Shown here piece by piece: positions 31,385 to 35,219 of a stretch of DNA of 64,000 bases. Every line of letters starts with the position of its first letter. Position 1 is the stretch's first letter. The translations under genes were made by a program, and so were the position numbers. Origin of the DNA: Haloferax litoreum (GTDB lineage Archaea > Halobacteriota > Halobacteria > Halobacteriales > Haloferacaceae); contig NZ_WKJO01000001.1 in assembly GCF_009674605.1 (NCBI RefSeq), positions 682,001 to 746,000 on the forward strand, written 5' to 3'. The notes below the pieces were generated by a model, which was not told the origin of the DNA, searched no databases, and saw only the letters and a list, made by a program, of their open reading frames with translations.

Positions 31385-32068
31385 TCAGCGAAGCGCGTCG
31401 ACCAGTCGTTCGCCGTCGACGAACGCCAAGTCGTGTCGGGTCGCGTAGTCGCGCGCAGTGGCCTTCGGGAGTGCCGCACCGCTCTCGTCGTCGAGCATCT
31501 CACAGACGACGACGGCGGGTGGGACGTCCGCCTCGTCGGCGAGGGCTAATCCGAGTTCGGTGTGGCCCTGTCGGTCGTCGAGGAGGTTCGGCGCGCCGCG
31601 GAGCAAGTGGACGTGGCCGGGTGCGCGAAACTCGGTCCCGAAGTCGTCGGCGTCGTAGTCACCGAGGCGCGTCGACTCGGCGACGGGCGCGAGACGAGAG
31701 ATAGTCATCGCGCGGTCCCGGTCGGTGATGCCAGTGAAGGAGTCACGGTGGTTCACCGTGAACGAGAACGACGACCGAGAGTCGTATCCGAGGTCGTGGG
31801 AACTCGCGGCGGGGTGGTTCAGCACGTCGTCCATGAAGGGTAACGAGAGCGTCTCGGCCACGTCGTCCGGGAGGGCGACGCAGACGAGACCACCGGCGTC
31901 GTTGCGCATGCGCGCGACATCGGCGGGGGTGACGGCACCAGCGGGATAGACGAGGTCGACCTCGCCTTCCCGGTCGTCGAAGTCGTGAATGAGAACCGGT
32001 TCGCCCGCGCGGAACGCGTCGAGGACGCGTTCGACGCTGTCGTAGTCGCTCTCGGCGGAACGACTCAT
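31385..32068 (-). CDS. ribB: 3,4-dihydroxy-2-butanone-4-phosphate synthase
   Basis: This enzyme makes the four-carbon precursor of riboflavin from ribulose 5-phosphate, using magnesium. The 227-residue protein has [13 protein letters not shown], with the acidic metal-binding residues, then [15 protein letters not shown], and the HTELGLALA segment. It is a single-function form without a cyclohydrolase II domain. It overlaps the rbkR stop by 4 nt, so both belong to one riboflavin operon. Confidence 0.95.
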
Positions 32069-32778
32069 TCGAACTCGGCCTCCTCGACGCAGACGGTGAT
32101 GCTGTCGCCATCTTCGAGGTCCAGTACGTCACGGAGTTTGTCCGGCGCGATAATCTCCAGTTGCGACTCGTCGTGGTGGGTTCGCTCGGGCACGATGATG
32201 TGGACCGGGTCGTAGGTGTCGCCGTCCACGTCGATGGCGGCGGCGTAGCACGTCGCCGGACCGAAGGTTCGCTCGTCGTCTTCCCACCCGTCGATGGGAA
32301 CCGCGTCGAGGGCAGACATGCCCGCACGAGAACGGACCGCGTCGTCGTCGAGACGGACGTTCAGCGTCCCCGGGAACGGTTCGTAACCTAGTCGCTCTGT
32401 GAACTGTTCCATGTACCCCAGAAGCGAGATGTAGTGGCGACCCTCGCCCATCCCGCCCGTGACTTCGCCGTCAAGGACGACGACAGAAGGCGTCTCGAAG
32501 ATTCGCTGGTAGTCGGCGTACTCGCGTCGGAGGGCGGACTCACCGTCGTCGGTGACGGTGACCCACTGTCCGTCCGAGACGACTTCGCGGTCGACGAAGG
32601 CGGCCTCTTCGAGACGTTGGAGACGACGTGACGCCGTCTGATTGGAGACACCCAGTCTGTCTGCGAGACCCGAACAGGAGACTTTGACTGGGCCGGAGCG
32701 GCCACCGTCGAGGGCGACGAGTTTCAGTGTGGCCAACTCGTCGTACCCGACCGTGGCAGCAACTACCGATTCTGACAT
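32065..32778 (-). CDS. rbkR: CTP-dependent riboflavin kinase with HTH domain (RbkR type)
   Basis: This 237-residue protein joins a winged helix-turn-helix (residues 1-95: [20 protein letters not shown]) to archaeal riboflavin kinase (residues 100-237). The kinase carries [28 protein letters not shown] and the [10 protein letters not shown] motif. Kinases of this family use CTP to make FMN. The fused form is known in archaea as RbkR, which also represses riboflavin genes. Self-regulation is likely: a 10-bp direct repeat lies upstream. It overlaps ribB. Confidence 0.93.
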
Positions 32779-32816
32779 ACGTCAGCGTTCGAGCGCGCGT
32801 CCCATAAGCGTATCGT

Positions 32817-32844
32817 AAATGAGATGCATTCCAGAAATGAGATG
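32817..32844 (-). promoter_or_regulatory. tandem 10-bp direct repeat upstream of rbkR
   Basis: AAATGAGATG occurs twice without mismatch (32817-32826 and 32835-32844; 18 nt start to start). On the minus strand this reads CATCTCATTT twice, immediately before the TACGATACGCTTATGGG promoter region of rbkR. Two sites on nearly the same helix face fit a regulator such as RbkR itself. The exact haloarchaeal RbkR motif is not known to me. Confidence 0.55.
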
Positions 32845-33086
32845 GTGCCAGACAGAGGCACCGAACACTTCGTACGTGGTGACTATCGGGGCACCGGTGG
32901 TAAGTCCGTCGGTCAGTCTACCGAATCGAGAAGGTGCCGACCGAAGCCTCTCTCGACACAGAAGTTAAGAGTGGAAAATCGGGGAGTGGGATGGGCAAGG
33001 AGAGCCGGGCACAGCGGAGCAGGTGCTGTTTTCGGAACGGTCGGTCCAGGGCTACGCGTCGAGGGTCGTCCAGTCGTGCTGGTGAA
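32845..33086. other. intergenic stretch without a recognised gene
   Basis: About 240 bp between the rbkR control region and the DUF7563 gene. A perfect hairpin GGTGCC-AGACAGA-GGCACC (32844-32862) opens it. An A/T-rich AGTTAAGAGTGG near 32961 could promote a plus-strand transcript. No good acidic reading frame is present, and I matched no known RNA family. A small RNA is possible but unproved. Confidence 0.35.
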
Positions 33087-33239
33087 TCAGGATTCTGCTG
33101 CCCTGCGCTCGGCACTTATTTGGGAGATGCCGGCGTTCGCCGAACACCTCGGGCACGCGTAGACACGGCCATCGTCGTCACCGAACACGCGGACGAAGTT
33201 CCTCGACACGAACGCATCGCAGTGGTTGCATTGACTCAT
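33087..33239 (-). CDS. small CxxC zinc-ribbon protein (probably DUF7563)
   Basis: This protein of 50 residues starts [11 protein letters not shown] and ends with [10 protein letters not shown]; the two CxxC pairs probably bind one zinc. Haloarchaeal genomes hold many such mini zinc-finger proteins, and the CxHCxAxVSxxFxRVF pattern is the one I associate with DUF7563. Function is unknown, perhaps nucleic-acid binding. The ATG at 33239 is chosen over an upstream codon because it gives the usual 50-residue size. Confidence 0.82.
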
Positions 33240-33455
33240 AGTGGGGGTGGTGGCAGTGGGGTTCTGCCTCGACAGATACGTGGAGCGCACAGGATATACC
33301 GCTACTACCTAACTGGTAAGGTGTCTCTGTGCGGTGCCGTCTCATCGACGATGGAGAGCGCTGAGACGATAGTCCTCCACCGAGAGCGACGAGAGGGACG
33401 GCCGTGCTCGGACGGTTCGGAAAGGCCTTTAGCCGCCTGCCGAGAATCCGCGTAC

Positions 33456-35219
33456 ATGTTCAGACAGTTCCGTGAGGAGGTCGAGGCGGCGCTCTCTGCG
33501 GCGCTCTCGTCGCTCGACCTCCCCACCGACGACCTCGGGGTCGAGGAACCACCGGAGGACGTACCTGCAACCCTCGCCTCCAGCGTCGCGTTCCGACTGG
33601 CCGGCGTCGTCGGTGCCGCACCGCCGAGCGTCGCTGCCGACATCGCCGACGAGATATCCGTCGAGGGCTACGACTACCTCGCCGCGGTCGATACGCAAGG
33701 GCCGTACGTGAACTTCCACGTGACCGATGCCTACTACGACGACACGCTCGATTCGGCCGCCACCGACACCGAGTACGGTCGGCTTCCGTCGACCGGCGAC
33801 AGCGTCGTCGTCGAACACACGAGCGCGAACCCGACGGGACCGGTTCACGTCGGCCGTACTCGAAACCCCGTCATCGGTGACGCCGTCGCCAACTTGCTCG
33901 ACTTCGCCGGCAACGACGTGGAGCGGCACTACTACGTGAACGATGCCGGCCGCCAGATGGCCGTCTTCACGTGGGCCTACGAGACGTTCGACGAGGAGGA
34001 CCTCGACAGCGAACCCGCCCGTGACCGCATCGAATACGACCTCGTCCGGTACTACCAGAAGGGCAACGCCTACCTCGAAGACGCGGACGCCGCGGACGCC
34101 GAGGCCGCCGAAGAAGAGATTACGGCGATTCTCCAGGGCATCGAAGAAGGCGACGAAGAGACCTACGCGCGCGTCGAAGAAGTCGTCGACCAAGTTCTCG
34201 GCGGCATGCGCGAGTGCCTCGAACGCCTCCCCGCCGAGTTCGACGAGTTCGTCAAAGAGACGCGCTTCATGTTCGACGGGAGCACCCGTGACCTCGCCGA
34301 CCGCCTCAAAGAGACCGAGTACGCGGTCTACGAGGAAGACGCGTGGCAACTCGAACTCGACGACTACGGGTTCGAGAAGAACCTCGTGTTCCTCCGCTCT
34401 GACGACACGTCGCTGTACACGACGCGTGACCTCGCCCACCACGAGTGGAAGTTCGACAACTACGACCGCGCCGTGACCGTCCTCGGTGAGGACCACAAAC
34501 TGCAGGCCGGCCAACTCCGTGCCGCCCTCGACATCCTCGGCAACGACGTGGACAAACTCGAGAACGTCATCTACTCGTGGGTCAACCTCCCCGGCGGCGA
34601 GACGATGTCCACCCGGAAGGGAACCGGCGTCATGCTCGACGACCTGCTCGACGAGTCAGTCTCGCGCGCCCGCGACGAAGTCGAAAAACGCCTCGAAGGC
34701 CGCGTCCGCGACGACGACTTGGACGACGACGACATCGACCGCATCGCCCGGCAGGTCGGTATCGGCGCTGTCCGCTACGACATCGTCTCGAAGCAACCGA
34801 CGAAGACCATCACGTTCGAGTGGGACCAAGCGCTCAACTTCGAGGCCCAATCCGCACCGTACATCCAGTACGTCCACGCACGCTGCTGCGGCATCGTCGA
34901 CGAGGCGGCCAACGCCGGCCTCGACGACACCAACGTCGACCCGTCTGTCCTCACGACCGAGGCCGAACGTGACCTCGTCCGTACGATTGCACGGTTCCCC
35001 GCCGTCGTCGAAGCGGCGGCCGACGACCTCGAACCTCACGCAGTCGCCACTTACGCCCGCGAACTCGCGGAAGTGTTCAACACCTTCTACCGCGAGTGCC
35101 CGGTACTCGACGCCGACGAAGGTGTCGGTGCCGCCCGCCTCGCACTCGTCAAAGCCGCGCGGAACGCCGTGGCTAACGCACTCGCTATCGTCGGCGTGGA
35201 AGCACCCGAGTCGATGTGA
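33456..35219 (+). CDS. argS: arginyl-tRNA synthetase
   Basis: This is a class I aminoacyl-tRNA synthetase of 587 residues. [17 protein letters not shown] carries the HIGH-equivalent signature, and MSTRKGTG is the KMSKS-equivalent loop. The N-terminal Add1 domain recognises the tRNA D loop, and the C-terminal helical anticodon domain follows. GCCTTTAGCC about 25-30 nt upstream of ATG 33456 is a plausible TATA element, giving a leaderless mRNA. The frame stays open far upstream, but that part is Arg/Gly-rich and not coding. Confidence 0.97.

Follow-up and report, generated by a model that had tools for sequence, protein, structure and literature searches.

A perfect 10-bp direct repeat lies just upstream of rbkR, a riboflavin kinase gene, in the 64,000-nucleotide stretch of Haloferax litoreum DNA analyzed here (the window), and the question raised by this locus is whether the repeat marks a site through which the gene is regulated by its own product. 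An earlier note, made from the sequence, had described the kinase as carrying its own DNA-binding domain, had judged the repeat improbable by chance, and had proposed it as the autoregulatory site. The coordinates of the features discussed are collected in Table 1.

Table 1. Features of the rbkR upstream region and flanking genes. Positions are those of the window.
Feature	Position	Strand	Remarks
rbkR	32065-32778	-	237 aa, winged-helix DNA-binding domain and CTP-dependent riboflavin kinase
ribB	31385-32068	-	next gene, 4-nt overlap with rbkR
Gene for DUF7563 protein	33087-33239	-	50 aa, two CxxC pairs; between rbkR and argS
Whole predicted operator, 37 bp	32808-32844	-	model R1 match 35.1 bits, E 3.9e-8 genome-wide; 48/48 further haloarchaeal loci
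First decamer copy	32835-32844	-	operator columns 3-12
Half-site 1 (RTNNCR, ATCTCA)	32838-32843	-	inside first decamer copy
Half-site 2 (YGNNAY, TGGAAT)	32828-32833	-	opposite orientation to half-site 1, spacer of 4 bp
Second decamer copy	32817-32826	-	operator columns 21-30
Half-site 3 (RTNNCR, ATCTCA)	32820-32825	-	inside second decamer copy
Half-site 4 (CGNTAY, CGATAC)	32810-32815	-	overlaps BRE place
TATA box TTAT	32804-32807	-	29 nt before rbkR ATG; abuts operator

The decamer AAATGAGATG, or CATCTCATTT as read on the rbkR strand, is present in two exact copies that start 18 bp apart, 39-66 nt upstream of the rbkR start codon, as had been described. Exact 10-mer direct repeats spaced 8-40 bp apart are common in the window (28 cases). 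Those with at least seven A/T positions number two, and of 50 first-order Markov simulations of the window just one produced any A/T-rich 10-mer repeat, so that a chance origin is indeed improbable. The copies upstream of rbkR are the only exact decamer matches in the window, where up to one mismatch gives four matches versus 1.08 expected from shuffles. Searching with both decamers and a free 8-nt spacer returned a single occurrence in the 3.56-Mb genome, even at three mismatches.

In order to examine what is conserved at this position, 55 rbkR upstream regions were compared, drawn from 54 of the 56 genomes with a match and including one genome with two gene copies. The two genomes left out match the kinase half of RbkR only (G035:C10:12242-12646 and G051:C5:7759-8178, both of family f2), and the regulator domain may be absent there. 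The exact decamer pair was present in 2 of the 55 regions (the window and L003) and in 2 of 15 Haloferax genomes, with one exact copy in 10 other regions, which rules out the decamer as the functional unit that the earlier note took it to be. Aligned ungapped over about 40 nt, the regions instead share the consensus RTNNCR-N4-YGNNAY-GC-RTNNCR-N4-CGNTAY-GC-TTAT on the rbkR strand. The four alternating half-sites form two 16-bp inverted repeats in tandem with a period of 18 bp, and the decamers, previously read as a simple direct repeat, are the in-phase part of these inverted repeats, which extend 9 bp past the interval first pointed out, up to the TATA box.

Most of the regions (50 of 55) scored above 30 bits, and the remaining five comprised three with a version overlapping the start codon (L051-L053), one at 22 bits (L044) and one degenerate (L043). 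The strict pattern RTNNCRN4YGNNAY occurred in 53 of the 55 regions, compared with none for a reversed control pattern. Palindrome pairs exactly 18 bp apart were found in 29 of the 55 regions; among the 48 further named loci from haloarchaea 30 had such a pair, versus 0 of 1100 shuffled upstreams. Across the 15 Haloferax genomes conservation was 0.92 in the operator versus 0.54 just upstream, and in the named loci the TTAT end of the aligned block lies 18-30 nt before the start codon; the spacing between element and start codon is almost constant across haloarchaea. A matrix from 50 rbkR sites was then run on 62 named loci of haloarchaea, of which 48 lie on contigs that no training contig equals in length. 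It placed the operator before rbkR in 48 of these 48 further loci, many of which come from congeneric species or species of neighboring genera, with a lowest score of 22.5 and a highest score elsewhere in any further locus of 2.6, only the rbkR strand being compared. The same matrix scan found no operator in 13 non-haloarchaeal rbkR relatives (0/13), and on this basis haloarchaea have an operator of their own, absent from the sampled Thermoplasmata and methanogen relatives. In three small-genome relatives (L051, L052 and L053, the rbkR loci of G042, G044 and G057), the operator-like sequence spans the start codon, and one contig (G031:C8) carries two rbkR-like genes (L032 and L056, at about 114.3 and 116.7 kb) roughly 2.4 kb apart with an operator before each.

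The product of rbkR has the domains of an RbkR protein. A match to PF01982 (141.7 bits, cut-off 25) covers residues 106-230 and a match to HTH_20 (30.9 bits, cut-off 27) residues 30-64, so that an N-terminal winged helix is fused to a CTP-dependent riboflavin kinase domain, in line with the domain composition proposed before; the NCBIfam model for the fusion, NF010762, scored 228.5 bits, below its cut-off of 279. The nearest named relative, RbkR of Haloferax profundi, is 97% identical. An alignment-based AlphaFold model (pLDDT 87.2), which replaced a single-sequence fold of pLDDT 41.6, showed a MarR-like winged helix. The best structural match of this model was 5TRD (Z 19.9; sequence E 1.4e-35), the RbkR of T. 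acidophilum with CTP and cognate operator DNA, which is 34% identical with both domains aligned in the protein comparison. The overall rmsd of 13.8 over 208 residues indicates that the two domains are placed differently relative to each other in the model and in the crystal. The kinase domain is also alike to that of the M. jannaschii riboflavin kinase MJ0056 (2vbv, Z 19.4), which unlike RbkR has no DNA-binding domain. In H. volcanii the same gene is HVO_0326, annotated rbkR, with ribB (HVO_0327) as its neighbor by locus number (PMC8305020, Table 6), and the portion of that paper available to us describes no operator for HVO_0326.

Taken together, the repeat is most likely part of the RbkR operator at the rbkR-ribB operon. 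The proposal of an autoregulatory site therefore stands as regards its location in the rbkR promoter and is strengthened by an element that is conserved and common to another riboflavin gene (see below), as would be expected of such a site; its form has to be revised, the element being palindromic and longer than had been seen.

The operator abuts the core promoter. The accessible part of a study of H. volcanii gives TTWT as the consensus TATA box and CGAAA as the consensus BRE, and 72% of coding transcripts as leaderless (PMC4983044). The TTAT before rbkR fits this leaderless pattern, and we infer a leaderless transcription start at or near 32778. It could be argued that the proximal half of the operator is core promoter only, consisting of BRE and TATA, and that the distal palindrome alone is regulatory. 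Columns 32-43, CGNTAYGCTTAT, are where BRE and TATA must be, and in ribH promoters, which have no operator, the TATA box is closely preceded by CGGTA in 25 of the 30 loci (L089-L118), perhaps as a BRE variant or as a lone half-site. On the other hand, half-site 3, which lies upstream of the BRE, is itself conserved (T 0.94, C 0.98, A 0.83), the argS promoter next door uses CGGAAA at the BRE place, and the consensus BRE of H. volcanii is CGAAA (PMC4983044). This reading of the proximal half is unlikely. Half-site 4, which overlaps the BRE place, could act as a regulator half-site, as a BRE, or as the two at once.

In order to identify the same site at other genes, a sequence-only model (R1) was built from 30 rbkR operators and searched over the whole window genome. 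Up to E 10 it matched twice, at rbkR and, weakly, at the promoter of a gene that scores above the cut-off of the NCBIfam model for riboflavin synthase, ribE (E 1.78, 11 bits). The ribE site, GTCACG-AAAA-CGTGAT-GG-TAAACA-GAAA-CGATAG-CC-ATTA, has the layout seen at rbkR and runs up to ATTA, a TATA-like sequence some 25 nt ahead of the ATG. With a score this weak, the weight of the ribE site rests on its position and on its conservation within the genus. By position and layout it is kept in all 15 Haloferax genomes, its matrix scores spanning -4.1 to 14.6; the palindrome is perfect in 14 of the 15, and conservation in 13 aligned Haloferax is 0.87 versus 0.59 upstream. Outside Haloferax, the ribE palindrome was found in 2 of 15 loci.

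For each of ribE, ribH and arfA, 30 upstream regions were read, the genomes that gave a match numbering 58, 58 and 56, respectively; L093 (ribH) and L139 (arfA) have incomplete flanks and were unreadable at the assumed start. Palindromes preceded arfA, the gene for the first step of the pathway, in 7 of 30 loci, all outside Haloferax, compared with 2 of 30 control stretches of the same loci. These include isolated 16-bp palindromes such as GTCACGAATTCGTGAT and, in one locus, two palindromes 18 bp apart. No operator palindrome was found before Haloferax arfA in the 6 readable loci (0/6). The ribH promoters, which the earlier note had suggested checking, lack the element, with a palindrome in 1 of 30 upstreams, not above control stretches (0/30 and 4/30). 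The same site is found before ribE in Haloferax and before some arfA genes elsewhere, not before ribH. In G022 the sequence upstream of arfA (L128) matches the rbkR operator at 19.5 bits when the opposite strand is read. A search of 59 genomes with R1 used stricter filters, at which weak matches are lost, and several weak matches (G009, G010, G004 and G015, for example) were left out. Twenty regions outside rbkR were read, and one was a real promoter site, a complete operator before arfA of G057. The best of the remaining matches, in G047 (E 1.7e-4), was rejected, as convergent genes flank it with their 3' ends, and no neighboring riboflavin gene was recognized by a rough ORF pick in the other 18.

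The distribution of the site also bears on which protein binds it. Many MarR- and ArsR-like regulators exist in haloarchaea, and the operator might belong to one of these, controlling rbkR, ribE and arfA in place of RbkR. Nevertheless, the site accompanies the gene for the winged-helix kinase in every one of the further haloarchaeal loci, the remaining real promoter sites are all at riboflavin genes, and the T. acidophilum RbkR has been solved in complex with its own operator (5TRD). Another transcription factor is accordingly an improbable owner of the site, and RbkR remains the preferred candidate.

The geometry of the operator was analyzed in 37 non-redundant sites, 13 of 50 having been removed as near duplicates. 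The autocorrelation of the profile had its maximum at 18 bp (r 0.70), the next best being 0.20. Covariation between arms was marginal for the outer palindrome, where 420 of 5000 shuffles reach the observed value, and across the GC centre (341 of 5000), and the inner palindrome showed none (2685 of 5000). The resemblance of arm 1 to arm 3 within species exceeds that in shuffles (3 of 5000). In a true direct repeat the protein would face the same way on every copy and the YGNNAY arms would be incidental. This reading would account for the perfect 18-bp repeat in the window, for the period of 18 as the strongest signal and for the resemblance of arms 1 and 3. Against this, the YGNNAY arms (columns 14-19 and 32-37) are conserved equally to the decamer, lone 16-bp palindromes precede arfA, and the exact decamer pair is so rarely kept, which together make a direct repeat very improbable and favor tandem palindromes. 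Finally, an RNA element like the FMN riboswitches used by bacterial riboflavin genes can be dismissed as next to impossible, as the operator lies upstream of the TATA box and should not be transcribed from the rbkR promoter, and no Rfam match, the FMN riboswitch covariance model included, was found up to E 1 within 32000-33600.

MarR-like dimers bind inverted repeats. A MarR-like winged helix in the protein and tandem palindromes abutting the TATA box suggest that two RbkR dimers may sit side by side on the rbkR operator, and that the inner one would exclude TBP and TFB. The proximal dimer, placed over BRE and TATA, would thereby block both factors. For other RbkR proteins, Rodionova et al. 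2017 are reported to have found that CTP favors and FMN lowers DNA binding. A response of this kind may provide feedback in haloarchaea, as either repression or activation. The product of arfA also feeds F420 synthesis. Within Haloferax, control would fall on the steps of ribB and ribE, and arfA would be left free.

RbkR is reportedly a combined kinase and regulator that responds to CTP and FMN and has regulons in many archaea. The RbkR of Rodionova et al. 2017 reportedly joins a winged helix-turn-helix to a CTP-dependent riboflavin kinase, with an operator upstream of its gene and of riboflavin genes, as here; the haloarchaeal operator described here is a tandem of two 16-bp palindromes. The RbkR regulator is already known. 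In the portions of the literature on RbkR and haloarchaeal riboflavin regulation available to us, the full text of Rodionova et al. 2017 aside, no haloarchaeal RbkR operator motif is described; these papers cite the RbkR work, use its annotation or have other subjects (PMC8305020, PMC7693651 and PMC10746257 among them). A further-reaching reading, which we offer tentatively and consider rather doubtful, is that haloarchaea use an undescribed double operator with two RbkR dimers 18 bp apart, in which the inner palindrome would also be the element that TFB recognizes at a leaderless promoter and flavin status would be read by direct competition with TFB. On the same tentative reading, the module may have moved between riboflavin genes, standing at ribE in Haloferax, at arfA elsewhere, and over the rbkR start codon in a few small-genome families.

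The site before rbkR provides a precise candidate operator for a protein that both regulates a pathway and works in it as an enzyme, in the genetically tractable Haloferax, with a predicted regulon in this genus of rbkR-ribB and ribE that excludes ribH and arfA. Knowing it would open haloarchaeal flavin feedback, and its separation from F420 synthesis, to simple promoter mutants. If the movement of the module between genes is true, it would decide whether the F420 branch point is under flavin control.
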